Positions 4,575-29,783 of a stretch of 37,552 bases of DNA are shown here, piece by piece. Each line of letters starts with the position of its first letter. Within the stretch, counting starts at the first letter, position 1. The DNA is from Acidiphilium iwatense. Lineage in GTDB: Bacteria; Pseudomonadota; Alphaproteobacteria; Acetobacterales; Acetobacteraceae. The stretch is from contig NZ_JAKGBZ010000037.1 in NCBI RefSeq assembly GCF_021556475.1, positions 1 through 37,552 of the forward strand. The letters are read 5' to 3'. Below the pieces are notes generated by a model. That model had not been told where the DNA came from. It ran no database searches and was given only the letters and a program-made list of their open reading frames with translations. Position numbers and translations under genes: made by a program.

Positions 4575-6209
4575 TCAGCTTCGGCCAAGTTTTTCAGCAC
4601 CACCGCCGAGAGCCGGGCCGGCTGTGGGATCGACATAATCCGGCCGGTCGGCGATCAGCGTATGGGTGGTCAAAATCAACGACGCGACCGACACCGCATT
4701 GCGCAAGGCGCTCACGCTCACCTTGACCGGATCGATGATCCCGGCTTCATCCATCACCACCATCGCACCCGACCGCGCATCCAGCCCGGTGCCCGACGGA
4801 GCCGCGGAAACCTGCGCCACCATCGCCTCGGCGTCAAACCCGCTATTGGTCGCGATCGCGGCAAGCGGCGCGATCAGCGCGTCGCGCAGCAGAAGTGCCC
4901 CAACCCGTGCGCCATTGAGCAGCCGATCCGCGCTTTCTTCGAGCTCCGGCGCAATCTGCGCCAGCGCGGTGCCACCGCCCGGCACCACGCCTTCGGCGAT
5001 CGCGGCACGTGCCGCGGCCAGTGCATCCTCGATCAATTGAGCGTGGCGCTTCTGCGCCACTGGCGTCGCCCCGCCAGCCAGTATCGTCGCGGTGCCGCCC
5101 GACAATTTCGCCAGTCTTTGTTCGAGCTTGTCGCGGTCGATATCGTTGGGCGCAAGATCGAGTTGGCGCCGCACCTGTTCGCGCCGCGCCGCGATCGCCG
5201 CGACATCGCCGTCACCACCGGAAATCAACGTCATGTTGGCGCCGATCCGCACCTGCCGCGCGCTACCCAGATCGGCACGCGCCGCCGCCTCGATCCGCCC
5301 ACCAAGATCGCGCGCGATCACCCGCCCGCCGGTGATGATCGCGATGTCTTCCAGCATCGCCTTGCGCCAATGCCCGTATTCTGGAGGATGGATTGCCGCC
5401 ACTGGCAGACCGCCCTCACGCCCGGCGAGCAACGCGGCCACAGCCGCCGGAGCGACCTCCTCGGCGATCACCAGCAATGGCTGATTGCTCGCCCCCACCA
5501 GTGCTCTGATCTGGCCAATCTCCGCCGCCGTCGTGATCTTCAGATCGGTCATCAGGATCAGCGGATCGTCCAGCACCACCTGCATCCGCTCCACATCGGT
5601 TACCATGTGATGGGAAATATAACCCCGATCGAAACTCATGCCGTCGGTCACGTCGAGCAGCGTCTCCACCGTGGCGCTGTTCTCCACCGTCACCATGCCC
5701 TGCGGCCCGGCCCGCTCGATCGCCTCGGCGACCAGCGCCCCGGTCGCGGCATCGTTGGCGGCGATGCTCGCGACTGCACGAATTTCGGCGGCGTCGCGTA
5801 GCGGCCGCGCACGGGCCCGCAATAAGGTGATTACCGCCTCGGCCGCCGCCTCCATGCCAGCCACGAGTTCGACCGGGCTGTCCCCGGCCGCCATCCGCGC
5901 CAGCCCCTTCTGCACCAGCGCATCGGCCAGCACCGTCGCGGTCGTGGTGCCATCGCCGGCGGTCAGGTTGGTCTGCATCGACACCTCGCGCAAAATTTGC
6001 GCACCCATATTCTCGAACCGACAGGCCAGTTCGATCTCGGCTGCGATCGATACCCCATCGCGCGAGACCATTGGCGTGCCGATCGGCCGATCGATGATCG
6101 CGTTCATGCCACGTGGCCCCAGCGTGCCGCGCACCGCGCGGGCAAGCTGCGCCACGCCCCGGCCAAGGGCCGCGCGCGCAGCTTCGTCATGAAGCATCAT
6201 CTTGGGCAT
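4575..6209 (-). CDS. groEL: Divergent chaperonin GroEL, MimG-like
   Basis: The protein has 544 residues, the usual length. ATP-site motifs are kept: GPRGMN near 31, SRDGVS near 49 and GDGTTTATVLA at 85-95 with the catalytic Asp at 86. The late VEDAL-type motif is present as LIEDAL, followed by EGVVPGGGTAL. It differs from housekeeping GroEL in many places and lacks the C-terminal Gly-Gly-Met tail, ending in PALGGGAEKLGRS. No groES lies beside it. In actinobacterial propane/binuclear iron monooxygenase clusters a similar GroEL (MimG) is needed to fold the hydroxylase alpha subunit, and the position right after prmD supports the same dedicated role here. The start follows GGGAAA. A strong hairpin lies upstream. 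Confidence 0.92.
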   Translation of the reverse strand: MPKMMLHDEAARAALGRGVAQLARAVRGTLGPRGMNAIIDRPIGTPMVSRDGVSIAAEIELACRFENMGAQILREVSMQTNLTAGDGTTTATVLADALVQKGLARMAAGDSPVELVAGMEAAAEAVITLLRARARPLRDAAEIRAVASIAANDAATGALVAEAIERAGPQGMVTVENSATVETLLDVTDGMSFDRGYISHHMVTDVERMQVVLDDPLILMTDLKITTAAEIGQIRALVGASNQPLLVIAEEVAPAAVAALLAGREGGLPVAAIHPPEYGHWRKAMLEDIAIITGGRVIARDLGGRIEAAARADLGSARQVRIGANMTLISGGDGDVAAIAARREQVRRQLDLAPNDIDRDKLEQRLAKLSGGTATILAGGATPVAQKRHAQLIEDALAAARAAIAEGVVPGGGTALAQIAPELEESADRLLNGARVGALLLRDALIAPLAAIATNSGFDAEAMVAQVSAAPSGTGLDARSGAMVVMDEAGIIDPVKVSVSALRNAVSVASLILTTHTLIADRPDYVDPTAGPALGGGAEKLGRS

Positions 6210-6307: not shown

Positions 6308-6679
6308 TCACCGGTCGGCGTATTTTATATATTCCATCGCCTCGTCCATATCGCCGAACAGCACCACTGTATTGTCATCGACCATCACCATCCGCCCGTA
6401 ATGGGTCGATGTCGAAATCTCGAACAGATGCGGCGTCATCGTCCGTCCGAGGGATTCCGAAATTTCATCCATCTTGAAGGTGATCTTGCCCTCGCCGTCG
6501 ATGCGGATCAGCGCCGGCTGATAGGTAACCGTGATGCCTTCCTTCGTGGCCATCACGTCGGCGATCGCGCGCGCCTCGACGCTGTCGTTCATCGTAACAC
6601 CGCACTGGTGAGAAATCGTGTCCTCGAAGCGGACATCCTTCATCGACTTGAAAATGGTAGCGGGATGAGCCTGTGTCAT
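6308..6679 (-). CDS. prmD: Propane monooxygenase coupling (regulatory) protein
   Basis: The protein has 123 residues, in the MmoB/DmpM effector family. I chose ATG 6679, which has AAGGAAA just upstream; a longer reading back to 6808 would overlap prmC. The sequence shows the family pattern: CGVTMNDSVEARAIADVMA in the first half, then ITVTYQPALIRIDGEGKITF and an acidic C-terminal part. Such small cofactor-free proteins bind the hydroxylase, alter access to its di-iron site, and match electron delivery to substrate hydroxylation. It is the fourth structural gene, 46 bases after prmC, and completes the A-B-C-D order typical of propane monooxygenases. Confidence 0.93.
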   Translation of the reverse strand: MTQAHPATIFKSMKDVRFEDTISHQCGVTMNDSVEARAIADVMATKEGITVTYQPALIRIDGEGKITFKMDEISESLGRTMTPHLFEISTSTHYGRMVMVDDNTVVLFGDMDEAMEYIKYADR

Positions 6680-6725
6680 GGGTGTTTCCTTTTGTTGCCT
6701 TGATCGGGATCCGGCGGTTTTGCGG

Positions 6726-7808
6726 TCACTGGTCCAGCGTGGCGCGCACGTCGAAGCCGATTTCGGCGGCGATCGCGCGAGCGCGGTTCTTCGCGAGGTC
6801 GAGGACATCGGTGAACTGCGCCGCTTTCACCCGTGGTTGCGACCAGATCGGCTGCAACTGATGCGCCGCCAACAGAGCAAGCGCGCCATGCTTGTTCATC
6901 CAGGAGATCAGCAGTTTCCGGTTGTGCTCGCCATGAGTTTCGTCAAGCACCAGCAGGTGGAACAGTTCGACCGCATTGGCGAGGTTGCGTTCATAATCAC
7001 CCTCGGCCGCGGAAACCACCGCCGGCGTCATGAAATCGTTCTGGGCCGCGGCCATCTGCATGATGAAGCCGCTGCGGAACAACTCACCCACCAACGGCTC
7101 GAACACGATGTTGGTGACGAAATATTGTTCGAGGAAATCGCTCGTCCCCATGACCGTCTCGATCGCCTGGCGCGTGCCCTGCCAGACCGGATCTTCCAGC
7201 CAATGCTGTTTGCCGGCCTCCTGGTCGAACCCTTCGATATCGAGTGCCAATTCCCCGAGGTAGAGTGTCAGATCCTGGGAAAACCGCAGCTTATAGGAGG
7301 AATTGGTCAGGATCGCATTGTTGATCATCTGGGTATAGCCATAGCGCTGCGCCTGCATGGTCGCGGTGCCCAGGCCGAATTCGGCATGTTTGTAGGCGCC
7401 AAGATGATCAGTCAGAACCTTCACCCATGCCCGATCGAACCGGCCCGGCGCGCCGGACCGGCGGCCATTCTCGATCACGTTGCTGATCATGCCGACAATG
7501 GTTGACTGGCGCTGGTAATGGGTGCGTTCCCACTCCTGGTCAATCGCGCGGAACTGATGCCAGTTGGACGATTTCAGCGCGGTCCAGGTTTTGTCGTAGG
7601 TCGGCGTGCCGTCGGCAAAATTGATGATCCAATCCTGCAGCAGATACCGCTCCGGATCGGGCTGGACATCGACCGTCATGTCCTCGTAGTGGCTCGCCTT
7701 GCGGCCTTTGGGTTCGAAATAGTTATACTTGCGGCTGTCGGACCCGGCGAATTTCGCGGACCCGGCGGCGCCTGACTTCTGAATAGTCTGTGTTTCCGTC
7801 ACGCTCAT
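6726..7808 (-). CDS. prmC: Propane monooxygenase hydroxylase, beta subunit
   Basis: The protein has 360 residues, in the ferritin-like hydroxylase beta family (MmoY/TomA1-like). The start ATG 7808 follows GGGAGAG. An N-terminal segment rich in Ser/Thr/Gly leads into RKYNYFEPKGRKASHYEDMT, the region that wraps around the alpha subunit in this family. A helical body includes DFLEQYFVTNIVFEPLVGELFRSGF (given here by its ends, about residues 220-245) and an HGEHN motif near 298-302. It keeps the fold of alpha but lacks paired ExxH metal ligands, as expected for beta. It assembles with PrmA as an (alpha-beta)2 hydroxylase, and its position between the reductase and coupling genes fits group-5 di-iron monooxygenases. 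Confidence 0.93.
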   Translation of the reverse strand: MSVTETQTIQKSGAAGSAKFAGSDSRKYNYFEPKGRKASHYEDMTVDVQPDPERYLLQDWIINFADGTPTYDKTWTALKSSNWHQFRAIDQEWERTHYQRQSTIVGMISNVIENGRRSGAPGRFDRAWVKVLTDHLGAYKHAEFGLGTATMQAQRYGYTQMINNAILTNSSYKLRFSQDLTLYLGELALDIEGFDQEAGKQHWLEDPVWQGTRQAIETVMGTSDFLEQYFVTNIVFEPLVGELFRSGFIMQMAAAQNDFMTPAVVSAAEGDYERNLANAVELFHLLVLDETHGEHNRKLLISWMNKHGALALLAAHQLQPIWSQPRVKAAQFTDVLDLAKNRARAIAAEIGFDVRATLDQ

Positions 7809-7864: not shown

Positions 7865-8905
7865 TTACCGTACCGCGGTGGTGAACTTGTCGAAGTAGAT
7901 GTGCTCGGGTTCGACCCCGGCCATCTGCAGCACCGGCAACACCGCATCGATCATCGGCGGTGGGCCGCAGGAATAGGCGTCTATTTCGCCTTCGAAACCT
8001 TCGCTGCGCAGGTGCTGGGCCAGAACCTCGTGGATGAACCCGGTTGCGCCGGTCCAACCATCGCCGTCTTCGGCGTTCGACAAAGCCGGGATGAATTTGA
8101 AATCCGGCAACGCCGCTTCCAGCTTTGCAAAATCATCGAGCAGGAACAGATCAGCTTGAGTGCGCGCGCCATAGAAAAACCGCACGGGGCGGCGCTCGCC
8201 GCTTTCCACGTGATCCTGCAAGATCGACTTCAACGGCGACATACCAGACCCGCCGCCGATCAGCAGCATCGGGCCAGGCCGCTCCTCGCGCCGAAAACAG
8301 GTTCCGTAGGGTCCTTTGGCGGTGAGTTTGTCGCCCGGCTTCAGTGCGTCATCAAGAGCTGCTGAAAAGGCACCCAGCGGATATTTTTTGATGATGAACG
8401 AGAGTTTGTTTGGTTCGCTCGGCGGATTGGCCATTGAAAACGACCGCGTAACCACCCCGTCCGGGAGCGTAATATCGACATATTGCCCCGCCCAGAACCG
8501 CAACGGCTGGCCGAGCTCGATTTCCAGCAGCCGAATGTCGTGAGTGAGCTTCTCGATCCGCGTCAGCCTCGCCTCATAGGATTTCACCGGAATTGACCGG
8601 CGCATCAAGTCCTCGTCGTAATTCAGCAGCTCGATCTCAAGGTCACTGTAGGCGTGGGTCTTGCACAGAAGGATGTGCCCGGAATCGCGCTCGTAATCCG
8701 GCAAGGCAAAGGTCGAATATTTCAGCAGTTCGATATCGCCATTGACCAAAAGAGATTTGCAACTGCTGCACTGGCCTTCCTTGCAGCCATGCATCACCGA
8801 AATGCCCTGGCGGAACGCCGCGTCGAGCACGGTCTCGCCTTCCTCGACCTCCATTTCGATGCCGACCGGCTCGAACCGGACCTTGTGCGTCGCGATATCC
8901 GACAT
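7865..8905 (-). CDS. prmB: Propane monooxygenase NADH reductase (2Fe-2S, FAD)
   Basis: The protein has 346 residues. The N-terminal plant-type ferredoxin domain has the cluster ligands C41, C46, C49 and C81 (HGCKEGQCSSCK and later LLCKTH). A ferredoxin-NADP reductase-like FAD domain follows with RSFSMANPP, then an NAD domain with LLIGGGSGMSPLKS and the terminal YSCGPPPMIDAV. It carries electrons from NADH through FAD and the 2Fe-2S centre to the di-iron hydroxylase. The start ATG 8905 has GGGAAACG upstream. It lies 86 bases after prmA, and that gap holds a terminator-like hairpin, so it may be expressed at a lower level than the hydroxylase alpha subunit. Confidence 0.94.
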   Translation of the reverse strand: MSDIATHKVRFEPVGIEMEVEEGETVLDAAFRQGISVMHGCKEGQCSSCKSLLVNGDIELLKYSTFALPDYERDSGHILLCKTHAYSDLEIELLNYDEDLMRRSIPVKSYEARLTRIEKLTHDIRLLEIELGQPLRFWAGQYVDITLPDGVVTRSFSMANPPSEPNKLSFIIKKYPLGAFSAALDDALKPGDKLTAKGPYGTCFRREERPGPMLLIGGGSGMSPLKSILQDHVESGERRPVRFFYGARTQADLFLLDDFAKLEAALPDFKFIPALSNAEDGDGWTGATGFIHEVLAQHLRSEGFEGEIDAYSCGPPPMIDAVLPVLQMAGVEPEHIYFDKFTTAVR

Positions 8906-8991: not shown

Positions 8992-10662
8992 TCAGTTCAG
9001 GGCATTGATCACGAAGCCCTTGCGGTATTCCGCAGCGGCTTTTTCCTTCTCCTCCACGGAAAGCTTGCGGAAATTCATGAGCGGGCTGCCCAGCGTGTGA
9101 CCACGCACATCATCGAGCGTCCACATCTTGCTGTCGTCAAAATGCAGATGCGGTTGCGGGACGAGGGTTTTGCCGTCGTTGCGCACGAAGCCGAGATCGG
9201 TGATCGCATCGGCAAGATCCCAACCATCGTAGCACGACTCCCACTCGCGCCGGCCGCTGAAGCGACCCATCGCCGGCGTCGGCCGCCCTTCATATTCGGC
9301 GGCGAACGCAACCTTGTGGGTCCAGCGGCAAGTTTCCGAACAATAGGTGTAAGTCTTGCCGTCAACCTCATCGTAGCAGAAGTCTTCACGAATCAGGCAC
9401 GGCACCATGCAGCTCCAGCAACGGTGCGGATAGACATATCCCGTATCGGTATTGAACAGGATGTTGGTCTCGCCCTTGTGGCTCAGTTTGGCATACCATT
9501 TCCAATATTCACCGAACTTGGTATACCAGCCGGGATATTTGTGCTCGAACCACTCAAAATCGCGGTCGGTCTGCGCTTCGATGCGCCAGAAATTCACCGG
9601 CCAACCGACCGAGAAGAATTGGGCAGTGTAGTGGACGTAGTGGTTCTTGACGATTCGGTCCCACGCCGCCGCGACATCGTCGTGATGGATCTTGATGCCG
9701 TATTTTTCGAGCGGCAACATGTAGGTCCGGTAATAGTCCTCGTAGATCCAGCGATGCCACAGCTCGGCATAGCTTTCCTTGTTCCTGTCACGATTGGTCG
9801 TACCGTATTCGACGAAAGTGCCGATCGCGGCATCGACGATCGCGTGGTTCTGCCAGAACGCATATTTCAGATCACGTTCGAGCAGCAGATGATTATCCGG
9901 GTCGTTGATCAAGGACATCAGCAATGAATGGCCGTTGCCGATATGCCGGCTTTCGTCGGACTGAACCGACAGGAACACCGTCGGCAGCGCATAGTCACCA
10001 TTGCGTGCCGCCTCTGACGGCATCGCGACAAACAAAGTGTTCGTGAACGCGGTTTCCGCTACCACGGTAAGATAGATATTCGCCGAGGTGATCGCGTCAC
10101 CGGTCACAAAGCCTTCCGCGAATTGCCGGCCGATGGTCGAGGCATAGCATTTGCCGAACGCGGCTTCGGTGATGTCGAACCCTGCCGGATCGATGTAGTT
10201 CTCCATATACCACTTCTTCAGGTTCATCTGAATCGTGGAATGACGGAATTCGTCGACCATCTGCATCGCAAAGCCGGTACGCAGTTCTTCTCCCGGCGCC
10301 AGGCGTCCCACCATCGCCATCGACCGCGCGGCGGAAATTTCTGGGAACGGAATGATCGCCAAGAACAGCTTCATCCACTCGACCCAGCGCGGTTCGACAT
10401 TGCGGAACATGTCGCCGCGCAACGCCGCGTCGAGCGCGCCATAGACGCGATTGTCCTTTTCCTCCTGCATCGGGAAATACGACCGTAAAACCTGCTTCAT
10501 CGGGTCGCGCGGAGTTTTCTTGATCTTATAGTCGGTGGGAAAGGTCATCGCTTCCTGCACGTAACTCGGCGTCCAGCCGAGATCGGCGACGCGACGCGTG
10601 GCCTCGTTGATACTCATACCGCGCTGGGCGGTAATCTTGTTGAGCGTTAAACTGTCAGGCAT
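8992..10662 (-). CDS. prmA: Propane monooxygenase hydroxylase, alpha (di-iron) subunit
   Basis: The protein has 556 residues from ATG 10662, which has GGGAG 8 bases upstream; an in-frame ATG at 10683 has no such site. The six di-iron ligands are readable: E108 (in PFPEIS), E138 and H141 (DEFRH), E203 (AETAF), E237 and H240 (DESRH). The spacings of 30, 3, 65, 34 and 3 residues are those of MmoX of soluble methane monooxygenase (E114, E144, H147, E209, E243, H246). The C-terminal third has the Cys-rich HRCWSCMVPC and YCSETC motifs typical of PrmA. It oxidises short alkanes or related compounds with O2 at the active site. It is preceded by its own sigma54-type promoter and is the first gene of the A-B-C-D set. 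Confidence 0.96.
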   Translation of the reverse strand: MPDSLTLNKITAQRGMSINEATRRVADLGWTPSYVQEAMTFPTDYKIKKTPRDPMKQVLRSYFPMQEEKDNRVYGALDAALRGDMFRNVEPRWVEWMKLFLAIIPFPEISAARSMAMVGRLAPGEELRTGFAMQMVDEFRHSTIQMNLKKWYMENYIDPAGFDITEAAFGKCYASTIGRQFAEGFVTGDAITSANIYLTVVAETAFTNTLFVAMPSEAARNGDYALPTVFLSVQSDESRHIGNGHSLLMSLINDPDNHLLLERDLKYAFWQNHAIVDAAIGTFVEYGTTNRDRNKESYAELWHRWIYEDYYRTYMLPLEKYGIKIHHDDVAAAWDRIVKNHYVHYTAQFFSVGWPVNFWRIEAQTDRDFEWFEHKYPGWYTKFGEYWKWYAKLSHKGETNILFNTDTGYVYPHRCWSCMVPCLIREDFCYDEVDGKTYTYCSETCRWTHKVAFAAEYEGRPTPAMGRFSGRREWESCYDGWDLADAITDLGFVRNDGKTLVPQPHLHFDDSKMWTLDDVRGHTLGSPLMNFRKLSVEEKEKAAAEYRKGFVINALN

Positions 10663-10755
10663 CTTGGATTCTCCCGATATCATTGCAAAACTGTCGCCGT
10701 GTCGGCAATGCGAAACGCGAAGTCACGGCAATTGCCATTGGCGCAGAGAATTTTA

Positions 10756-10771
10756 AGCATAAATCGTGCCA
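10756..10771 (-). promoter_or_regulatory. Sigma54 (-24/-12) promoter for prmABCD
   Basis: The - strand reads TGGCACGATTTATGCT. The -24 half TGGCACG is perfect, and the -12 half ATGCT differs by one base from TTGCT. The invariant GG and GC are 10 bases apart as required. Transcription should begin near 10744, giving a leader of about 80 bases before prmA. It lies in the 259-bp gap between the 58-residue gene and prmA. Sigma54 control matches the two sigma54 activators of this locus. Confidence 0.85.
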
Positions 10772-10921: not shown

Positions 10922-11098
10922 TCACGACATCGCACCATCGTCGGGCGGCTCGGTGAAGCTCTTGCCTTCGGCGATCCAGCGCGCGGCCAGAACAAGAACG
11001 CCCATCGCAAAATCCTTGCCGTGGGCCGCGATCATTTCATCGGCTATAGCGCCCACGCGCACAAAGAATGCGTCCTTGGACGTCTGTTCGTCTTTCAT
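10922..11098 (-). CDS. 58-residue protein, translationally coupled to the WD40 gene
   Basis: The start ATG 11098 overlaps the stop of the WD40 gene in an ATGA (11095-11098), a strong sign of coupled translation. The product begins MKDEQTSKDAFFVRV and continues with IADEMIAAHGKDFAMG and VLVLAARWIAEGKSF, ending in an acidic PPDDGAMS tail. It reads as one or two amphipathic helices without a signal peptide or Cys. I do not recognise a family. Its position as last gene of the accessory block, before the prmA promoter, suggests it works with the DUF59/WD40 pair or the hydroxylase, possibly as a small subunit or adaptor. The start codon and coding frame are well supported by context; the function is unknown. 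Confidence 0.7.
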   Translation of the reverse strand: MKDEQTSKDAFFVRVGAIADEMIAAHGKDFAMGVLVLAARWIAEGKSFTEPPDDGAMS

Positions 11099-12204
11099 GA
11101 GCGTATTCCTGTTCGAAACAGAATATCTGGCAGAGCGACAACACCGGCTTCGTTATCGTCGGTGGCAAAGACCAGGGACTCACCATCGGGCGCATAAGCG
11201 AGATGGCGGATCGCGGCGCCCTCCGCACGAACCTTCATGCGACCAGGAATTTGCGGTTGGCACAGAAAAATCGTGCCCAGTGCATCGCCATAAGCGATGA
11301 TCGGGCGGCGCGGATTGCACGCCAAGGCCGTGACGCCGGCCGATTGTGCAACACAGACTATAGGCTTGTCGCCATTGCCTTGGGGCCAGCATAAAATGGT
11401 GCCGTCGATCGCCGCGATCAGTGTGCCTTCGGCACTGAAGCCGATCGCGGCCGGTGTGCATGGCTGCGCCATCCGGCGCGGCAACGCGGCGGTGTCGATG
11501 CACGATATCTCGATTGCATTCCCGGTGGCCCGATGAGCGAGCATGGTACCATCGGGACTCCAGGCAAACCGCCCTGCCGCTTCGGCTGAACCAATTGATC
11601 GGACCCGGCGAACACCAGCTATGGCGAGCATGACGCCCTCGCCATGGCCGATAGCGAGGTTCAGGCCAGGGGGATCATAGGCCAGCGCTCTGACTGAAGT
11701 TGGCATCGCGATGCGGCGGGCGTCCGGCCCGAACATATCCACTTGACGGCCTGCCACCATGGCGCAACGGCCGCCGCGACCGGCCCCGACATGGGTAATT
11801 GTTTTGCGAGGATGGTCGGCGATGGTCTTGATCTCGCCATTGGCGATGTGCAGAAATCGTCCGTCCGCACCGCCGGAGACGATCCCGCCCGAAGGCAGGC
11901 TGGCCAACGACAATACCGCATCCCGATGGGCGGCGATGATGGTGGGCGGTGGCGGTGGCGCCTCGCCGGCCCTGATTTCGACTCCACCGCCTGGCCGATG
12001 CGCCAGGGTTGGTGCGCCGGGCCATCGCGCGTGCAGCATGACAATCGCACCATCGGCCAGCCCCAGGCACGCGACCGAACCATCCCAGGCCAGGGTATTG
12101 ATCGGGGAAGTGAACACGAAGCTCGCACCTAGAAGATCGAGCAAAGACGGCGGCTGAACCCTGGTACGCTTTAAGGCATGCTCTACGGCATTCCGGGGGC
12201 TCAC
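11095..12204 (-). CDS. WD40-like beta-propeller protein in the monooxygenase operon
   Basis: The protein has 369 residues from GTG 12204, which has GGAGG 8 bases upstream and lies 2 bases after the DUF59 stop. A longer frame back to 12336 would overlap that gene. The sequence is a series of beta-rich repeats of about 40 residues, with turns such as AWSPDGTMLAHRATG, FSAEGTLIAAIDG, YAPDGESLVFATDD and SGGADGRFLHI, as in WD40/quinoprotein-like propellers. There is no signal peptide, so it should be cytosolic. Propellers are protein-binding platforms. Because it directly follows a DUF59/MIP18 gene, a joint role in loading iron or Fe-S into PrmA or PrmB is my main hypothesis; it could instead be a general assembly scaffold. 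The family call is good, the function inferred. Confidence 0.8.
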   Translation of the reverse strand: MSPRNAVEHALKRTRVQPPSLLDLLGASFVFTSPINTLAWDGSVACLGLADGAIVMLHARWPGAPTLAHRPGGGVEIRAGEAPPPPPTIIAAHRDAVLSLASLPSGGIVSGGADGRFLHIANGEIKTIADHPRKTITHVGAGRGGRCAMVAGRQVDMFGPDARRIAMPTSVRALAYDPPGLNLAIGHGEGVMLAIAGVRRVRSIGSAEAAGRFAWSPDGTMLAHRATGNAIEISCIDTAALPRRMAQPCTPAAIGFSAEGTLIAAIDGTILCWPQGNGDKPIVCVAQSAGVTALACNPRRPIIAYGDALGTIFLCQPQIPGRMKVRAEGAAIRHLAYAPDGESLVFATDDNEAGVVALPDILFRTGIRS

Positions 12205-12206
12205 AG

Positions 12207-12995
12207 TTATCGCCTCCGTATGTCGGTGCCGTGCGGCCGCGGCGCTTGGCCCTGCCGCATGAAATCCGCAAGTCCCGGTTCCGGCGGCAAGGCGGCGGAT
12301 GTGGTGCCGTAGCGGGCAGCAAGCAGCCCACGGCAAAGCGCTCCGTTGAACTCCGCGTTCAGCCCGACTCGGCGGATGTGGCGGAGATAGACATGCAGCG
12401 TCTCCGGCATGATCGGCTCGCCGGCGCGGGTGACAAAGGCGCTTGGCAAGCCGTGCGTTAGAGGACGACGTACGAGATAGCGCATACGCAAGACGATACC
12501 CTCGTCATCAAAAGCGAGGCGTTCGAGCCCGGACACATCGAGGTCAAGAATTGCAACGGGATCATGTCCAAGCGACAACATGTGGCGTAGCAAGGCTTCC
12601 TGTCGCCGTTCGAAGGATTTCAGGCCAAAGTGAAGGCGGATGCTGGCCAGATCGTCGCTTGCCTCGGTGGGAAACGCCTCGGCGAAATCCTTGCCTTGTG
12701 CGATCCCATCGTTGATTTCAGCGATGAACATATGCTCGTCGAGCCGGATACTCGCACGTGTTACCCAGGGCAGCGACAAGACGGCATCGCGCATATCGGC
12801 CGCCATGAGATAGGAGAAATTCGCCGCACACCAATAGGTCGGCAGACGGAAATCCACGTTCACGCCATCGTCGTCCGTAATATCGATCGCGATGACGAAG
12901 CCGAGTTCGACCACGCTCTCGTCGAGTTCCGGATCGGTCACCTGATCGAGAGCGGCGCGCACCGCATCGATGCGCACCTGTCCTCGATCGGTCAC
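12207..12995 (-). CDS. DUF59/MIP18-family (metal-sulfur assembly) protein with C-terminal extension
   Basis: The protein has 262 residues and starts at GTG 12995, overlapping the amidohydrolase stop (GTGA). Residues 8-95 match the DUF59/MIP18 domain: DPELDESVVELGFV (21-34) corresponds to the DPE...LG.V motif, and LPTYWCAANF (51-60) holds the conserved reactive Cys, here C56. The family includes SufT, PaaD and eukaryotic CIAO2, all linked to Fe-S or metal-centre maturation. About 165 extra residues follow that I do not recognise, ending in a basic RPHGTDIRRR tail. DUF59 genes also occur, as I recall, in actinobacterial mim/prm clusters. It is encoded between the amidohydrolase and the WD40 propeller, suggesting a maturation module for the monooxygenase. 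Confidence 0.85.
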   Translation of the reverse strand: MTDRGQVRIDAVRAALDQVTDPELDESVVELGFVIAIDITDDDGVNVDFRLPTYWCAANFSYLMAADMRDAVLSLPWVTRASIRLDEHMFIAEINDGIAQGKDFAEAFPTEASDDLASIRLHFGLKSFERRQEALLRHMLSLGHDPVAILDLDVSGLERLAFDDEGIVLRMRYLVRRPLTHGLPSAFVTRAGEPIMPETLHVYLRHIRRVGLNAEFNGALCRGLLAARYGTTSAALPPEPGLADFMRQGQAPRPHGTDIRRR

Positions 12996-14008
12996 GCGAC
13001 CTTCGCCTCCATACGGCTAAGCTTCGTTTTCTGGGCCGCGATATCCACCCCGTAGAGGCGCGCCGCGTTTTCACCGAGGATTTTTTTCTTGGCGGTGAGC
13101 GTCAGTTCCTTACCGGTCTCCTTCATCACCTCGTCCGGCAGTTCGAACGCCATGAACTTTTCCACCAGCCATTGCGGCGTCCAGATACCGTAATCCGAGC
13201 CGAACAGGATACGGTCCTCACCCAACCAGAACAGCAGCTCGGAAATTACCTTCGCGAAGTATCCTGGCCGCGAGTGGATGAACGGCAACACAACCGCGAG
13301 ACCACCATAGACGTTCGCTTCCTGGACCGCGATCCAGCAGAAATCATCGAGGCGCGGCAGGCCACAATGCTCGACGATGAAGTTCAGATTCGGGAAATCC
13401 GTTGCACAATGGTCGATGTCGGCGACATCGAAAGCGTCGCGGTCGAGCGGGATGATCGTCGGCCCTTTGTGGACGTGGATGTTCTTGATCCCGAGCTTCT
13501 CGCAGCGTTCCAGATATTTATACGCTGCTGGCTCGGAAAGCTTATAGCCCCGGCTGTCGCCTTTCCATTCGGCGGTATACAGTTTCACGCCTTTGATCTT
13601 GTGAACCTCGGCCATCGCATCCAGCGCATCGAGCCCGCCTTCGCCATCGCGCGGGTCGAATGCGCCGTTGAGAATGAACCGGTCGGGGTAGCGCGTCTTC
13701 AGAATGGCGTTCTGCTCCAGCGTGTTGAAGCCGTTCTTGTAGAAATCCTTGAGATAGGTCGGCTGGAAGATCGCCATATCATCCGGCCCGTCGATGAATA
13801 AATCCCGCACCATCTGCTCGGCGCCGTATTTGGCGAATTTCTCTGGCGCCCATAGCTGTTCGGCCGGCGAAAGCGAGGCGTGATAGCCATAGAAACAGTC
13901 GATGAACTGTTTACCGTGGATGTTCCTGATGTTCTCCGGGCTCGCATCCCACAGATGCACATGCCCGTCGATGATGAAGATTTCCGATCCGTCTTTCGCC
14001 TTATACAT
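12992..14008 (-). CDS. Amidohydrolase-2 family protein of the monooxygenase cluster
   Basis: The protein has 338 residues in a TIM-barrel metal-dependent hydrolase fold. The N-terminal metal motif HVHLW gives H16 and H18. Further likely ligands are H178/H180 (HVHKGP), H214 (VEHCGLP) and D272 (FGSDYG), the order expected for the amidohydrolase-2/ACMSD-like group. The start ATG 14008 has GAGGAAG upstream, 37 bases after adh. An amidohydrolase of this type is a standing member of propane/mim monooxygenase clusters in actinobacteria, where its reaction is not settled; hydrolysis or decarboxylation of a product is possible. The end overlaps the DUF59 gene by four bases. Confidence 0.88.
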   Translation of the reverse strand: MYKAKDGSEIFIIDGHVHLWDASPENIRNIHGKQFIDCFYGYHASLSPAEQLWAPEKFAKYGAEQMVRDLFIDGPDDMAIFQPTYLKDFYKNGFNTLEQNAILKTRYPDRFILNGAFDPRDGEGGLDALDAMAEVHKIKGVKLYTAEWKGDSRGYKLSEPAAYKYLERCEKLGIKNIHVHKGPTIIPLDRDAFDVADIDHCATDFPNLNFIVEHCGLPRLDDFCWIAVQEANVYGGLAVVLPFIHSRPGYFAKVISELLFWLGEDRILFGSDYGIWTPQWLVEKFMAFELPDEVMKETGKELTLTAKKKILGENAARLYGVDIAAQKTKLSRMEAKVA

Positions 14009-14045: not shown

Positions 14046-15089
14046 TTACGGGATCAGCACGGCACGGCCACGAACGCGGCCGTTGTGGAGATCGTGTAGT
14101 GCGGTATTTGCATCTTCGAGCTTGTATTCGCGGGTCGCCAGCGTGACTTTTCCCTGGTCCGCCAATGCCATCAGCTCAATCAACTCGGCATAGGTGCCGA
14201 CCAGATTGCCGACGATGGTTTTCTCCGTAGTGATCATATCGATCGTAGGAATATCGATCTTTCCGCCATAACCAACGATGTAATAGAAACCAGCGTTGCG
14301 CGTCATCGCCAATCCCTTGGCGATCGCATCGCCCTCGCCGACAAAATCGATCACCGCCTCCGCGCCCTTACCTTTGGTGATCCGTAAGACCTCGTCGACC
14401 TCCGACCCATCGGCCTTCACCGCGAAATCGGCGCCGCATTCCTGCGCGAGTTTCAGCGCCATATCGGCGCGGTCGACAATAATGATTTGTGCGGCGCACA
14501 AGGCGCGCAGCACCTGGATGCCGATATGGCCGAGGCCGCCCGCCCCGATGACCACGGCATATTCGCCAGGCAGCAGGTGCCGTGATGCCTTCTTGGCCGC
14601 GCGATAGGCGGTCAATCCTGCGTCGGTATGCGGGGCGACATCCTTGGGGGCCAGAGTTGTCGGCAGCTTGATGATCGAGCGCGCGCCGGTACGCAGATAC
14701 TGCGCGTAGCCGCCATTAGCATTGATGCCCGGAAATTCACTCTCCTCGGCGTGCATATCCTCGCCGCGCCGGCACGCGAGGCAATGACCCGAGGTGATCA
14801 GCGGATGGCAGATCACCGGGTCGCCAACCTTCAGATGCGTCACGCCGGACCCGATCTCCTCGATCCAGCCAGCGTTTTCGTGGCCCATGATATGCGGCAG
14901 CGCCACCTCGACCTTGGAACGCCAGATCCCCTCGATGATGTGCAGATCGGTCCGGCACACCCCGGCGCCACCGATGCGCACGATCACATCATTGGTGCCC
15001 TTGATCGCAGGGTCCGCCACATCCTCATAGGTCACGAAGACCGGCTTCTCCAATCTCTCGTCGTATTCGTGCAGCACGGCTGCCTTCAT
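14046..15089 (-). CDS. adh: Zinc-type alcohol dehydrogenase (propanol oxidation)
   Basis: The protein has 347 residues; start ATG 15089 follows AAGGAAA. It is a medium-chain NAD(P)-dependent dehydrogenase. Catalytic zinc ligands are C45 (GVCRTDLH), H70-E71 (GHENAG) and probably D156 (HTDAGLTAY). The Rossmann motif VIGAGGLGHIG is present. The structural-zinc loop is degenerate: C103 and C106 remain, but the expected positions 100 and 114 are Ser and Ala, so the second zinc is probably not held by four cysteines. As first gene after the upstream sigma54 promoter it likely oxidises the alcohol made by the monooxygenase, such as 1- or 2-propanol. Exact substrate and cofactor preference cannot be read from sequence. 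Confidence 0.92.
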   Translation of the reverse strand: MKAAVLHEYDERLEKPVFVTYEDVADPAIKGTNDVIVRIGGAGVCRTDLHIIEGIWRSKVEVALPHIMGHENAGWIEEIGSGVTHLKVGDPVICHPLITSGHCLACRRGEDMHAEESEFPGINANGGYAQYLRTGARSIIKLPTTLAPKDVAPHTDAGLTAYRAAKKASRHLLPGEYAVVIGAGGLGHIGIQVLRALCAAQIIIVDRADMALKLAQECGADFAVKADGSEVDEVLRITKGKGAEAVIDFVGEGDAIAKGLAMTRNAGFYYIVGYGGKIDIPTIDMITTEKTIVGNLVGTYAELIELMALADQGKVTLATREYKLEDANTALHDLHNGRVRGRAVLIP

Positions 15090-15127
15090 GGCGCGGTTTC
15101 CTTGTTTCTTGGTCTGAGTCCTATCCA

Positions 15128-15143
15128 TGCATCGGCCATGCCA
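15128..15143 (-). promoter_or_regulatory. Sigma54 (-24/-12) promoter for adh and following genes
   Basis: The - strand reads TGGCATGGCCGATGCA. The invariant GG and GC are 10 bases apart, and the sequence differs from TGGCACG-N4-TTGCA at two positions. Initiation near 15116 would give a leader of about 27 bases to the adh start. It sits between the divergent adh and activator genes. Confidence 0.75.
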
Positions 15144-15185
15144 AAGCCGCAGCAGACTGGAATCCGTGGGCGACGAGCGGCAAGC

Positions 15186-15202
15186 TGTTCCGTTTCGCAA
15201 CA
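15186..15202. promoter_or_regulatory. Probable activator sites between adh and its divergent regulator
   Basis: TGTTCCG-TTT-CGCAACA is a 7-3-7 inverted repeat with one mismatched pair, 42 bases upstream of the adh -24 element. The half-site TGTTCCGT recurs at 15219-15226, 33 bases on (about three helical turns), and CACAA-ATA-TTGTG lies at 15247-15259. Such spacing suits cooperative binding by a sigma54 activator, and these sites would also lie over the promoter of the divergent regulator, allowing autoregulation. Confidence 0.5.
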
Positions 15203-15341
15203 ACTATGAAAAAGACTTGTTCCGTCGCGCGCCAATGGCGTGTATCCACAAATATTGTGCGTAGCAGACACACCCGGCACAGATCGGGGCGCCGCGCCAA
15301 AGCACGTAAGAAGATTGCTCGCACACGCAGTCGGAGGAAAC

Positions 15342-17530: not shown

Positions 17531-18578
17531 TCACGCCGTCACACCAACGGCTTTCGCGTCAAATTTGTCGCCGTGGCGTAGGACGGCCCACGCAATCCGC
17601 GCCAGCTTGTTGGCCAATGCGACGACCGCGGCGTTCTTGTGCACCCTGGCCATCAACCCCCGCAGCCAGCCGCCCAGTGGTGTAGCACTGGTCAGCAGAC
17701 CTGGCAGGGCGGAGCGCGCGCCATGGATCAACTGCTTGCGCAGATATCTGTTGCCGCGCTTGCTGATCCCGGCAAGCCGGGGCCGCCCGCCCGTCGTGAT
17801 CTGACGCGGTACCAACCCCAGCCAGGCCGCGAGATCCCGACCCCGCGAAAACGTCTCGCCCTTGCCGATCGCAGCGATCAGTGCGGTGGCGTTGATCGGG
17901 GCCGATACCGGGGATCGAAAGCAGCCTGCAGGCCGCCTCGTCGTCGCGGGCACGGGCAACAAATTCGTCGTCGAAAGCACCGATCCGGTGATCCAGTTCG
18001 CGCCATTCGTCCCGCATGTCCCCGATGAGAGCCTGCATTCGTGGGGTCAACGCGATGCTATCCTCGTCGTTCTGATCGAACCGTGCCACCAGGTAATGCT
18101 CGAGCTTGCGCCGTCCCTTCGGCACGGTAATCCCCCGTTCGAGAAGGATCGCACGCAGCTGGTTGATCAGCGCCGTCCGTTCACCGACCAATCGGTCCCG
18201 CGCCCGATGCAACGTCTGTAGGTCGAGCTGCTCCTCGCTTTTGAGTTCCACAAAGCGCATCGTCGGTCGGGTCGCCGCTTCCGCGATCGCCTCGGCATCC
18301 CGATCATCGTTCTTCTGCGCCTTCACATACGGGCGCACATATTCCGGCGACATCAGCCGGACCGTGTGACCCTGAGCCGCCAACAGCCGCCCGAGATAAT
18401 GGGCGCCACAGCACGCCTCCATGGCGATCACACACGCCGGGATCTTCGCCGTGAATACCGTCACGCTGTCCGGCCGCATCCGGCGCCGCTTCACCACGGC
18501 GCCGCTCGCATCCAACCCCGCGAGGCTGCAGCTGTTCTTGCCCAGATCGATCCCCAATACCGCAAGCTCTTTCGCCAT
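17531..18578 (-). pseudogene. IS110-family transposase with a frameshift
   Basis: The start ATG 18578 (AAGGAAAGG upstream) begins MAKELAVLGIDLGKNS. The N-terminal RuvC-like DEDD domain is visible: D in GIDLGK, E in AMEACCGAHY and the Asp pair in KNDDRDAEAI. After LLSIPGIG the frame shifts: a run of four C on the coding strand (17898-17901) replaces the expected three. The C-terminal domain continues in another frame with INATALIAAIGKG, FSRGRDLAAWLGLVPRQ and GISKRGNRYLRKQL, which includes the probable catalytic Ser, ending at 17531. The gene is therefore broken, unless the extra C is a sequencing error or is bypassed by ribosomal slippage. Confidence 0.88.
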
Positions 18579-18659
18579 GGCACATTCCTTTCCTTCCGGT
18601 GGCCCCCGCAGACTACGCCGCGGGGAAAGGGGCGGGCCATTCCATAACTTCGATCCCAG

Positions 18660-18788
18660 CGCCTTCCACTTGTAGAACGTCGCCTCGCTCACGCCGTGCT
18701 TGCGGCACACGTCTGCCGTCTTCGCCCCCGCCTCCTGCTCGCGCAGGATCCCAATGATCTGCTCCTCGGTAAAACGCGATCCCTTCAT
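18660..18788 (-). pseudogene. IS3-family orfA remnant interrupted by the IS110 element
   Basis: From ATG 18788 (AGGAGG upstream) the 43 residues include FTEEQIIGILREQEAGAK and GVSEATFYKWK, the classic IS3 orfA helix-turn-helix start. Homology stops at about 18660, where the IS110 element begins; by chance the frame stays open into the next gene. The IS3 end is probably near 18844, where the - strand starts TGAGCCCCTGAAACTCC. No orfB or other IS3 end is seen on the far side of the IS110 element, so the rest has been deleted. Confidence 0.8.
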
Positions 18789-18844
18789 CTCCGCCTCCTG
18801 CTCAGGCGGACTCTACCTAAAATCGGAGGAGTTTCAGGGGCTCA

Positions 18845-19137
18845 GGTCAACCCCGCCATCGGGGTGCCAGAGGATCACAGTCGATAGACATTCGAGCACC
18901 CCGCCCATCCTCAGATTTGGATTTCGAGTGAGTTATAATGAAAGTGGTTGCGGGGAACCGCAGCCATCATGACTTGCGCGGACTTCAGGGACTCGCGCGG
19001 GAGATCAAACTGGTCGCCGGCGAAGAATTTCAGCAGGACTTGCTTTTCCGGGCGGCAGCTTGATCCGTGGATGTTGAAGTGCCGACGCAAACCGAGGATG
19101 CAATCTCGGTTTGATTGCAAGTTTTTTCGCATTGACC
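18845..19137. other. Unassigned spacer between IS remnants and the trb cluster
   Basis: No gene is supported. A 73-residue frame on the - strand (18911-19132) has no ribosome site and no family I know. At 19089-19112 AAACCGAG pairs with CTCGGTTT. The overlapping pair TGCAATC (19099-19105) and GATTGCA (19113-19119) is followed two bases later by TTTTTT (19122-19127). The two hairpins exclude each other on the + strand. Confidence 0.4.
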
Positions 19138-19446
19138 CTAAATTGTAGGATGATTTTTCGTACTCGTATCGCCGGGTGTCTCGCCACGCTTCGAGCCGGA
19201 CTGATTGACCGTCTCTGACAAGCCCACCGCTTTCTTCTTCCGGCTCCGGAAACCCCTATCGGTCGTGATGAACCGCTCGACGATCAAGGGCACGAGTTTC
19301 TCGACCAGTGGGGCATCCGCCAAACTGTCCTGGGCGGCGATCGCGGCGGCATAGTCGCGCAGCAGATTATCCTGCGCGGCGGTGAAGGTAATGGTCCGTT
19401 TTACCGGCCGGTCGTCTGGCAGTGCACCGATACGAAGTTTTGCCAT
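19138..19446 (-). CDS. DUF2274 protein, last gene of the trb cluster
   Basis: The protein has 102 residues and begins MAKLRIGALPDDRPVKRTI, the hallmark start of DUF2274 proteins, which regularly follow trbI in Trb-type conjugation clusters. The middle (NLLRDYAAAIAAQDSL, then VPLIVERFITTDRGFRSRKK) is helical and ends in a basic stretch. The C-terminal 30 residues are polar and look disordered. A role in regulation or DNA binding has been suspected for the family by its ribbon-helix-helix look, but nothing is established. It starts 19 bases after trbI. Confidence 0.85.
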   Translation of the reverse strand: MAKLRIGALPDDRPVKRTITFTAAQDNLLRDYAAAIAAQDSLADAPLVEKLVPLIVERFITTDRGFRSRKKKAVGLSETVNQSGSKRGETPGDTSTKNHPTI

Positions 19447-19465
19447 TCTTTTGCTCCCTTCCCTC

Positions 19466-20749
19466 TCACGACCCTGTGTAGGGTCGGAATACGATGTCGC
19501 GGTTGACCATCACGTCGAACGGGAATCCCGGACGAACGGTGAGGGTCGGCTGCACGCCAAGGTCATGCGAGACGATCTGCTGGCCCGCCTGGTTGGTCGC
19601 CTGGTCGCCACTCTGACCGAGCGAGATGATCAGATTGCCGGAACTGTTGCCACCAACGACGTTGTTGGTCGCGAGCGCGCTGGAGACGCCGAGCAAGGAT
19701 GACAGCACGACGCCGCGCAGCAGCTTCCAGAAATGATAATCCACGCCGTCCTTGAGCCCCGCATATCCCTGGGTGTCGGCTGCGGGCAGATTGTCGAGCA
19801 CGATCGAACTGCCATCCGGCATGATGAGGCGCGTCCAGATCAGCAGCACGCGCGATTGGCCGTAGGCGACGACGCTGTCATATTTGCCGATCAGCTTGGC
19901 GCCTTGGGGGACCAGCAGATAGCGGCCGGTGACGCTGTCGTAGACGTCCTGGGTTACCTGGGCAATCACCGGGCCGGGCAGATCGGAATTCAGGCCGGTG
20001 ATCAGCGCGGCCGGAATGACGCTCCCGGCCATCAGCTCGTAGGGACTGATGGGTTTTTGCAGGCGGTCCGGCGAATAGACCGAGCGATCGACCGGGCTGT
20101 TCAGGAAGGCTTGTTTTTCTCCCTGCCCAGAATGGGTTTGTCTCGCGGCCAGTGTTGCACGCCGAGGATAGAATTGATCCGCTGGTCCACCGGGGGATGG
20201 ATTTGCCGGTGCGCTGTTCGATACTGCTCCAGTCGAAGCGTCCTCACCGCCGGGGTTCGTGGTCATGGTGAAGAACACTCCGGCAAGGGCAGCCTGGTCA
20301 TGGAGCCGGGCGGCTGCCTGTTCTGATGGATTGGTCGGCGCCGGCGCAAGATCGGGCGGTGAGGCCTGACCCAGCATTGGCGATCCGAGATCGCCCTGCA
20401 GCGGCGGTCCCAGTTGGGGAACCTTTGCAGGAGTGGGTGTCGACGTTGGCTTCGGCTTGGTCAGGCCAGCATAGCCCTTCGGCAAGCCATTCATTGCCTG
20501 GGCCGAAGGCCGAACATCGGTGTTGTAGAGCTGCTTGCCCGTGGTGATCCGAAAACTGTGCAGCGCGAACGCCCACCAAACCGCGCCGCCAATGCAGAGC
20601 GCGAGGCTACCGGCGGCGATAATCAGCGCCCGGCGCGACAGCCGGGTCACAGCGCGCGGCTGGGCGCGGATCGCAAACGATGCCGGATCAGCTTTCGGCG
20701 GCGGTGCCGAGGGGGGCACGGGCGCCTGGTTGTTCTCCGGGCCCGTCAT
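19466..20749 (-). CDS. trbI: Conjugal transfer protein TrbI (VirB10-type)
   Basis: The protein has 427 residues. After a short Pro-rich cytoplasmic N-terminus there is a single membrane segment (about residues 40-62) and a long Pro/Thr/Ala-rich periplasmic linker. The conserved VirB10 C-terminal domain follows, with SPYELMAGSVIPAALITGLN, TGRYLLVPQGAKLIGKYDS and IMPDGSSIVLDNLPAAD. It spans inner and outer membranes and forms the core complex with TrbG. Its start overlaps the trbG stop by four bases. Length and order are normal for Trb systems. Confidence 0.95.
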   Translation of the reverse strand: MTGPENNQAPVPPSAPPPKADPASFAIRAQPRAVTRLSRRALIIAAGSLALCIGGAVWWAFALHSFRITTGKQLYNTDVRPSAQAMNGLPKGYAGLTKPKPTSTPTPAKVPQLGPPLQGDLGSPMLGQASPPDLAPAPTNPSEQAAARLHDQAALAGVFFTMTTNPGGEDASTGAVSNSAPANPSPGGPADQFYPRRATLAARQTHSGQGEKQAFLNSPVDRSVYSPDRLQKPISPYELMAGSVIPAALITGLNSDLPGPVIAQVTQDVYDSVTGRYLLVPQGAKLIGKYDSVVAYGQSRVLLIWTRLIMPDGSSIVLDNLPAADTQGYAGLKDGVDYHFWKLLRGVVLSSLLGVSSALATNNVVGGNSSGNLIISLGQSGDQATNQAGQQIVSHDLGVQPTLTVRPGFPFDVMVNRDIVFRPYTGS

Positions 20750-21729
20750 CCGCTGCTGCCATCGGTGCGAGTGATCCGCACGATCTGCTGCGGCCCGGCG
20801 CCGAGGCGGAGCTCTGCTCCGGCGAACAGCCGATCGACGATCATCGTATTACCGCGCACCCGATAGTTGACGATCTCTGCCTTGCCGCCGGATGCGCCGA
20901 GGATGAACAGCGGCGGCATGTCGCCCTGGGCGATGCCGGGCGGGAACTGGATGTAGACCTTTGATCCGTCATCGAACACCTGCACGGGCCGCCACGGCGG
21001 GTGATCGCCGCTGATCCGGTACCGGAAATGTAAATCGGCAAGATCGACGTCACTCGCCGCGACGGTGCTGGCGTAATCGGTGGCGGCGGTGTTCTGCGCC
21101 TTGAGTGCCAGCAGATCATCCTGCGGGTAATTCCAGGACACCGCCGCCATGTAGGTCTGCTTCGTGGGATGGATCTCGAGGTGGTAGGCGCGCCGATTGG
21201 TCATGATGACGATGTTGTTCATCGGCAGATCGGCCGAGATCGGCTTGACTAGAACATGGACCTGCGTGGTCGGCCCGGACCCGCTGGTGGTATTGCCGAT
21301 CTTCCATTGCACGGTATCGCCGGCGGCGATCGAGATCAGGCGCTCGCCGGGCTGCAGCGCGATATCGGTGACGTGCAGCGGTGAGGCGTAGATTTCATAG
21401 AGCGCGCCGGTCGACCAGGGGAACACCTGCATGGCGTTGATGTAGCCGTCGCGCGTCGGGTTGATCCGTGCGGCTGCATTGGCTGCAGCCACGCGCGCGA
21501 CCGGGTTCGCTGGCTGCGCTGGTTGCCGATACGCCATAGCCGGGGGGAGTTTCTTCAACTGATCCGGCAAGGGCAGCGGTTCCGGCAGCTTCACCAGGCG
21601 AACGGGCGGCGGGGGCGGTGCAATCAGATGGGCCGGTTGCGGATCGCCATAGGCGATTTTCGGCACTTGCTGCGCGCAGGCGGAGAGTGCCAAGGCGCCG
21701 GCGACCGGGAGCAGGAGCAAAAATCTCAT
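20746..21729 (-). CDS. trbG: Conjugal transfer protein TrbG (VirB9-type)
   Basis: The protein has 327 residues from ATG 21729, which overlaps the trbF stop as ATGA. A long open frame continues upstream across trbF but has no homology. The N-terminus is a lipoprotein-type signal with LSACAQ, so Cys18 is probably lipidated. A Pro-rich spacer is followed by the VirB9 beta-sandwich, with PGERLISIAAGDTVQWKIG, NIVIMTNRRAYHLEIHPT and a terminal NYRVRGNTMIVDRLF. It builds the outer-membrane part of the core complex with TrbI. Confidence 0.95.
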   Translation of the reverse strand: MRFLLLLPVAGALALSACAQQVPKIAYGDPQPAHLIAPPPPPVRLVKLPEPLPLPDQLKKLPPAMAYRQPAQPANPVARVAAANAAARINPTRDGYINAMQVFPWSTGALYEIYASPLHVTDIALQPGERLISIAAGDTVQWKIGNTTSGSGPTTQVHVLVKPISADLPMNNIVIMTNRRAYHLEIHPTKQTYMAAVSWNYPQDDLLALKAQNTAATDYASTVAASDVDLADLHFRYRISGDHPPWRPVQVFDDGSKVYIQFPPGIAQGDMPPLFILGASGGKAEIVNYRVRGNTMIVDRLFAGAELRLGAGPQQIVRITRTDGSSG

Positions 21730-23779: not shown

Positions 23780-24110
23780 GCGGCGCTCCAGCCGCTAGTG
23801 GTGAAATTGCATGTTCATGTTCAGATGGAACGAACTTGTTTGGGGTATTTTTGAAGAGATTGACCGGCTTCTGCGTATAGGTCGGGGTATGACCGAAGAA
23901 CCGCTTGTTCTCGGCCTGCCACGCGGTGTGGCAGCGCGCATCGGTATTGGCCGCCATGCCGAGCTGCTTGCAGCGATCGAGTTCGGCGGTAAGCATTTTG
24001 GGGTTGGCGACGAGTTGATCGATCGTCGGGGCGTTCGCCCATGCCGGCGCAGACAGACTGGGCAGACCGACAACGACAAATGAAATAGCGACAAGGGTTT
24101 TGACGTTCAT
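23772..24110 (-). CDS. trbK: TrbK-like small periplasmic protein (entry-exclusion candidate)
   Basis: The protein has 112 residues from ATG 24110, overlapping the trbJ stop (ATGA). A signal peptide covers about residues 1-26 (cleavage after AWA). The mature part has two Cys in ELDRCKQLG and ARCHTAWQAENKRFFG, the pattern of the alternative TrbK proteins found at this position in Trb clusters. A polar, His-containing tail follows. In RP4 TrbK blocks entry of a second copy of the element; the same role is inferred here from position and pattern only. Confidence 0.75.
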   Translation of the reverse strand: MNVKTLVAISFVVVGLPSLSAPAWANAPTIDQLVANPKMLTAELDRCKQLGMAANTDARCHTAWQAENKRFFGHTPTYTQKPVNLFKNTPNKFVPSEHEHAISPLAAGAPHG

Positions 24111-27582: not shown

Positions 27583-27600
27583 CTCCCGTTCCGCTCCTGG

Positions 27601-29780: not shown

Positions 29781-29783
29781 GAT

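Follow-up and report, generated by a model that had tools for sequence, protein, structure and literature searches.

The WD40 gene of a propane-monooxygenase-like operon of Acidiphilium iwatense: a candidate member of a COG0523 GTPase-WD40 module

The surroundings of a WD40 gene were analyzed in contig NZ_JAKGBZ010000037.1 of Acidiphilium iwatense, whose 37,552 nucleotides are called the window below. The gene belongs to an operon which by resemblance is propane-monooxygenase-like (prm/mim). It starts 2 bp after the stop of a DUF59/MIP18 gene and its own stop overlaps by 4 bp a gene encoding a protein of 58 amino acids (aa). A sequence-only reading of this DNA had proposed that the DUF59 and WD40 proteins form a bacterial counterpart of the cytosolic iron-sulfur assembly (CIA) targeting pair. 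The evidence does not support such a pair and leads to a more general module, composed of a COG0523-type GTPase, a WD40 protein and the small protein. With a probability of about 0.5 we regard the window WD40 as a derived member of this module, here in reduced form, which would aid metallation or assembly of the hydroxylase; DUF59 would act separately, and its adjacency to WD40 in the window would be a local arrangement.

Gene order in prmA loci and the GTPase-WD40 couple

Gene order was surveyed in the best 80 of 451 prmA loci, 82-95% identical to the query; the counts hold for that group, and several loci end early. The profiles that scored the open frames drew chiefly on the window and on a few clusters from plasmids. 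The 58-aa gene was present in 74 loci, an amidohydrolase gene in 66, DUF59 in 64, WD40 in 46 and a COG0523-type GTPase in 28. The amidohydrolase gene lay directly ahead of DUF59 in 63 of the 64 DUF59 loci, and DUF59 was followed by GroEL in 59 of them. The 58-aa gene came directly after WD40 in 45 of 46 cases, which bears out the tie between these two genes that the sequence-only reading had drawn, and the GTPase gene had WD40 directly downstream in 27 of 28 cases. Upstream of the 46 WD40 genes we found the GTPase (27), an alcohol dehydrogenase (ADH, 6), a 105-aa gene (3), DUF59 (1), and other genes or contig ends (9). Besides the window, DUF59 directly precedes WD40 in a single locus, L018 (L097 probably duplicates that genome). 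The idea that the WD40 gene is unique to the window genome is rejected, and with it one objection to the sequence-only reading, because the gene recurs in prm clusters; the expected recurrence next to DUF59 is confined to this one locus of 46.

Sixty-seven loci had room on both sides of prmA, 13 of the 80 being excluded for lack of it. In these, amidohydrolase and DUF59 were jointly present (61) or jointly absent (6). WD40 and DUF59 occurred together in 34 loci, DUF59 only in 27 and WD40 only in 6, and the prm GTPase was accompanied by WD40 in all 27 loci having it. At a threshold of E 1e-10 over whole genomes, prm-type DUF59 was not found in L083, L084, L091, L094, L095 and G038, all of which have a prm WD40. 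Fifteen genomes of the 27 DUF59-only loci were searched whole for WD40, and in three of them (L085, L088, L090) a prm-type WD40, with a 58-aa gene next to it, lies a short way outside the flank. WD40s on six further fetched stretches were typed, which decided five genomes; G012, G024, G046 and G086 are only 82-87% complete. WD40 and DUF59 genes come and go independently. No open frame was matched by two of the seven profiles, i.e. no natural fusion was found. Some loci probably represent the same genomes, since their WD40s (L018/L097, L017/L100, L022/L102, L023/L108, L039/L109) or GTPases (L029/L103, L071/L104, L028/L107) are identical.

The prm GTPases upstream of WD40 form one clade (32 rows, 29 distinct; support 98/99), and every one of them has an intact Walker A motif and GCxCC. 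Among solved structures YjiA is their sole match at E 1e-10. Many prm clusters of proteobacteria are arranged as ADH, in some cases the 105-aa gene, GTPase, WD40, 58-aa gene and prmA. WD40s outside prm clusters also form one clade (support 100/100), and those examined with annotation adjoin COG0523 GTPases. When prm and non-prm couples are taken together, 26 of 41 overlap by 4 bp, the commonest junction (both copies of probable duplicate genomes were kept, so that a few genomes are counted twice). On Devosia and Gemmobacter plasmids the couple is accompanied by zinc (L008) or metal (L009) ATP-binding cassette transporter genes and by Fur-family regulators, with no monooxygenase in view; the couple of Lichenicola has no such transporter or regulator neighbours in view. 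From its profile match and its place in the tree, the window WD40 is assigned to this COG0523-linked WD40 family.

The extracts available of Haas et al. (2009, PMC2770081) describe WD40 genes beside COG0523 subfamily 5 GTPases, near znuABC and Zur sites. We set the present couples beside subfamily 5 by this description, the likeness being a GTPase gene that adjoins a WD40 gene. Prm and homologous non-prm couples have in common the gene order, often the 4-bp overlap, WD40 residues of the ENALHGWR type and the GCxCC of the GTPase. The prm members differ from the zinc-linked ones in forming separate clades, in lying in a monooxygenase operon and in having the 58-aa partner; the window copy lacks, in addition, both the GTPase and the shared WD40 residues. 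No open-licence paper placing the couple in a monooxygenase cluster was found among the text accessible to our search. As far as these sources go, its presence in prm clusters is new here, its presence near zinc-uptake loci being known since 2009.

Some variants of this gene order were also observed. Outside the 80 loci, in Rhodobacterales (L123, L127) and Aminobacter (L126), WD40 and the 58-aa gene form a separate unit near prmA. Such units, sometimes divergent and a few kb from prmA, are L007:7155-8500, L123:4526-6149, L126:5989-7652 and L127:5836-7468; their WD40s are variously annotated as WD40 repeat protein, hypothetical or 'Hat/HatR'. The protein of about 105 aa looks like a coiled coil, and its gene lies directly upstream of the prm GTPase (L049:6862-7176) or of WD40 (L053:8211-8528). 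Bradyrhizobium-type loci have weak, possibly chance matches to it ahead of the 58-aa gene.

The WD40 and DUF59 proteins

The WD40 protein matches PF00400 with 36.4 bits (cut-off 27). Its AlphaFold2 model has a mean predicted local distance difference test score (pLDDT) of 93.1 and a predicted template modelling score of 0.90, and eight four-strand blades can be counted from the DSSP list, the last closed by the N-terminal strand. Among the best 50 of 1,992 structural matches, model-normalised template modelling scores are 0.64-0.75 for TBLR1, Notchless/Rsa4, ODA16 and the designed Tako8, which we take to be eight-bladed, against 0.54-0.58 for entries titled seven-bladed. CIAO1, the seven-bladed WD40 of the CIA complex, is not among these 50. 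By sequence, it is rank 14 of 691 matches of the WD40 profile in the PDB (E 2.6e-23) and is outscored by bacterial and designed WD40s.

In a tree of 60 WD40s, left after removal of duplicate or short ones, the window protein falls beside the Acidiphilium, Acidocella and L018 WD40s, whose genes all lack an adjoining GTPase. No prm-type GTPase was found by profile search in the window genome, where DUF59, not the GTPase, is upstream of WD40. The genome holds three strong COG0523 matches, the best reaching 423 bits against the prm GTPase profile, compared with 549-566 bits in three genomes that have the prm GTPase. Nine more relatives with WD40 and no prm GTPase gave best matches of 396-446 bits, a range that includes the window value, and G046 (82% complete) gave none. 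We infer that the GTPase was lost in this lineage. The 423-bit GTPase is followed by its own WD40 at L116. No zinc context is evident in the open frames around that pair (first 45 residues viewed, no family search), so the type of this WD40 is called non-prm.

At 84-88% PrmA identity, WD40 identity averages 55.1% among loci with GTPase (113 pairs) and 35.5% among loci without (37 pairs). A signature of 14 positions, including the ENALHGWR stretch, is kept at a mean of 13.8 in nine non-prm sequences, 13.6 in 29 prm sequences with GTPase and 3.4 in 22 that lack it; of the 14, the window retains 1. When positions are defined on the nine non-prm sequences alone, which is less circular, 69% are kept with GTPase and 48% without. 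Residues 223-254 include 10 of 18 lost and 1 of 40 kept positions (Fisher 7.8e-6), a weak result since the region was picked after looking and neighbouring positions are not independent. A number of family-wide residues remain conserved.

The DUF59 protein matches PF01883 over residues 10-82 (59 bits, cut-off 23.5). D21-P22-E23 and C56, which we take to be the DPE motif and the reactive cysteine, are present as the sequence-only reading had it, and invariant in 40 of 40 aligned cluster members. These are the window and 39 of 64 extracted sequences (alignment A6); A5 and A7 likewise comprised the window and 38 of 44 and 33 of 74 members, and A8 used 18 of 28 extracted members. In the AlphaFold2 model (pLDDT 90.6) the first domain matches TM0487-like proteins and CIAO2B, the latter, as found in CIAO1-CIAO2B structures, at ranks 6, 7, 12 and 14. 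From about residue 87 the protein is predicted to be largely helical, and the 50 best structure matches include no convincing PDB match to this region. An assignment to SufT or SUF-associated proteins is rejected on NCBIfam cut-offs (TIGR02945 27.5 versus 143.4 bits, TIGR03406 20.3 versus 202.6 bits), as is one to PaaD (haloarchaeal model NF041868, 28.8 versus 180 bits; no bacterial PaaD model was among the matches). Together with the amidohydrolase, DUF59 most likely constitutes a separate unit that would handle iron-sulfur clusters or metal. An amidohydrolase and a long DUF59 also form a two-gene unit, with no monooxygenase in the stretch seen, on plasmids of Peribacillus and of a haloarchaeon, Halorarius (L011:6882-8696; L014:6879-8759). 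Family searches found no named family for the 58-aa protein.

Proposed role of the module and alternatives

To our knowledge, how soluble di-iron monooxygenases acquire iron is poorly understood. In the full prm module, metal, presumably iron, would be brought to the hydroxylase during assembly, or the hydroxylase would be held open. The GTPase would be both metal carrier and switch, binding metal at GCxCC and releasing it to the client upon GTP hydrolysis, as in other G3E systems. The WD40 propeller would be the scaffold on which GTPase and client dock, and the 58-aa protein, whose gene adjoins prmA, a hydroxylase-side factor engaging the hydroxylase. In the window, where the GTPase step is missing, the WD40 and 58-aa proteins might serve as a folding or assembly scaffold without GTPase, or might borrow another COG0523 GTPase of the genome. 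A role in metal-centre maturation, as suggested by the sequence-only reading, is better motivated than before; it would pass through the GTPase and not through DUF59.

Soluble di-iron monooxygenases can need helper proteins for heterologous expression (extracts of PMC6849523 among other sources). A close parallel is Nha3/P47K, the COG0523 activator of Fe-type nitrile hydratase, which like the prm GTPase is encoded together with a single non-haem iron enzyme and seems to serve that enzyme alone (PMC2770081, in extract). The two are likened by role, not by subfamily: the client is another one, and the available text mentions no WD40 partner for Nha3. By analogy the cargo is likely to be iron, given this precedent and the di-iron nature of the client enzyme. 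The GTPase-WD40-58-aa set of many proteobacterial prm clusters would thus be a named and deletable candidate for the iron-loading step, parallel to Nha3. If so, the zinc-linked couple was recruited for another metalloenzyme, and GTPase-less lineages, including that of the window, would be natural experiments on which part of the module does what.

Several observations weigh against this reading. Prm WD40 was not found in 12 of the 15 DUF59-only genomes searched whole; ten hold only non-prm WD40s, and L052 and L075 only weak partial matches. Nor was WD40 found in the stretches around the Azospirillum, Skermanella and Methylocella clusters (L121, L122, L124), which also lack DUF59 and amidohydrolase within 9 kb on each side of prmA, or around two Rhodococcus clusters, where no 58-aa or prm GTPase gene was found either (in one of them, L012, the reductase, small-subunit and coupling profiles also found nothing). 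Because several genomes and clusters do without WD40, this class of enzymes does not require the module. The 14 signature positions were picked post hoc, once the groups were known. L006, L068 and L106, without GTPase, still carry 11, 11 and 12 of them and L023 carries 8, and L094, with GTPase, has only 7. When the shared columns are left out of the tree, the motif changes twice and the GTPase four times; the four independent pairs have no power, and tree-corrected co-loss of GTPase and signature is not significant. The cargo could be zinc instead. Co-expression of GroESL made even Nha3 dispensable (PMC2770081, in extract), and heterologous expression of the Mycobacterium enzyme is cited as requiring the GroEL-like chaperone (extracts of PMC6849523). 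The Nha3 observation would fit a loss of the GTPase from clusters that have their own GroEL-like protein.

The retention of WD40 where the GTPase is absent can be read otherwise. It might be a relic that drifts without its GTPase and is kept only by its position in the operon, as the lower WD40 identity of GTPase-less loci, the single signature residue of the window and the clusters that do without WD40 would suggest. We consider this unlikely, because the open frame is intact and predicted with confidence to fold as a propeller, the 4-bp overlap with the 58-aa gene is present, WD40 genes occur in several genomes of the genus and family of the window, and family-wide residues persist. It is conceivable but rather doubtful that WD40 acts as a general scaffold, either of the multi-component monooxygenase or of a metabolon comprising ADH, hydroxylase and reductase, with no part in metal delivery; the GTPase would then have a different task. 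WD40 proteins are involved in scaffolding (PMC6689063, in extract) and many loci have the gene between ADH and prmA, but the same couple is also found in metal-uptake loci where no monooxygenase is seen, and the prm GTPase has never been seen without WD40 in loci with sufficient room.

That DUF59 and WD40 are a CIA-like targeting pair, supplying PrmA or PrmB with iron or a 2Fe-2S cluster, now appears very unlikely. In its favour are the 2-bp spacing with a Shine-Dalgarno sequence inside the end of DUF59, the likeness of the DUF59 fold to CIAO2B, the profile match to CIAO1 and the recurrence of the adjacency in L018. The resemblance to the eukaryotic CIAO1-CIAO2 complex is thus one of a DUF59 fold and a WD40 propeller. 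The predicted propeller differs in size, the best structural matches being eight-bladed folds, and other WD40s come closer by sequence; neither a seven-bladed, CIAO1-like WD40 nor a stable pairing with DUF59 was found. The CIA targeting tripeptide [LIM][DES][WF] was absent, looser pattern included, from all 456 C-termini examined (81, 80, 79, 76, 73 and 67 for six proteins of the cluster), where contig ends may have truncated some open frames; only part of the CIA clients bear it (PMC10623007, in extract). As a conserved unit the pair is rejected on the 1/46 adjacency, the independent presence of the two genes and the lack of the tripeptide. The window DUF59 is 69% identical to that of L018, beside WD40, and 67% to that of L021, which is not; the latter being as close, the linkage has left no visible mark. 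It is most improbable that the window-lineage WD40, having lost the GTPase and the surface for it, swapped partners and became translationally coupled to DUF59, as a second, bacterial CIA-like pair made from metallochaperone parts. Were it true, a WD40-DUF59 targeting pair would have arisen a second time, in bacteria.

The operon and its surroundings

The genes are listed in Table 1 in minus-strand order, from ADH to the GroEL-like gene. The coordinates and domains of the DUF59-WD40 arrangement given by the sequence-only reading were found correct. The prm/mim label denotes resemblance, because MimD, the top NCBIfam match of the coupling protein, stays below its cut-off (113 versus 150 bits).

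Table 1. Genes of the prm/mim-like operon in the window
Feature	Coordinates	Strand	Remarks
Zinc-type ADH	14046..15203	-	start uncertain; listed TTG is the most upstream
Amidohydrolase_2	12992..14008	-	conserved partner of the DUF59 gene
DUF59/MIP18 protein	12207..12995	-	262 aa; helical C-terminal region (predicted); DPE 21-23, Cys56
WD40 propeller	11095..12204	-	369 aa; starts with GTG; eight blades predicted; prm-type, of the COG0523-linked WD40 family
58-aa protein	10922..11098	-	unnamed family
Hydroxylase large subunit	8992..10683	-	PrmA-like; likely client
Fer2/FAD/NAD reductase	7865..8905	-	PrmB-like
Hydroxylase small subunit	6726..7808	-	PrmC-like
Coupling protein	6308..6808	-	MmoB/DmpM family, MimD-like; true start probably lies after the listed ATG
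GroEL-like chaperonin	4575..6209	-	of the cluster

The DUF59 gene, which starts with GTG, shares 4 bp with the amidohydrolase gene. The Shine-Dalgarno sequence of WD40, GGAGG, is 8 nt ahead of its GTG, within the final DUF59 codons. A sigma-54-like site, TGGCAC-N5-ATGCT, with one mismatch (10756-10771, minus strand), lies in the gap of about 240 bp ahead of prmA and suggests that the genes from prmA onward may have a promoter of their own; the number of such matches across the window (23, versus 17.4 expected) does not exceed chance. On each side the operon is flanked by a gene matching the sigma-54-type activator profile of the cluster.

Actinobacterial prm/mim clusters (Gordonia, Rhodococcus, Mycobacterium) likewise have prmABCD, a metal-dependent hydrolase, a metal-sulfur cluster biosynthetic protein, ADH and GroEL, and their descriptions, in the extracts available, name no WD40 (PMC4428276, PMC6849523). 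The Azospirillum, Skermanella and Methylocella clusters retain a GroEL-like gene, in pieces in L124, and in L122 it is followed by a 58-aa-like gene. In the window, an IS110-type transposase and Trb/VirB-like conjugation genes (17559-31811, recognized from translations, without family search) adjoin the operon, and because of these neighbours the prm cluster may be located on a plasmid or an integrative element.

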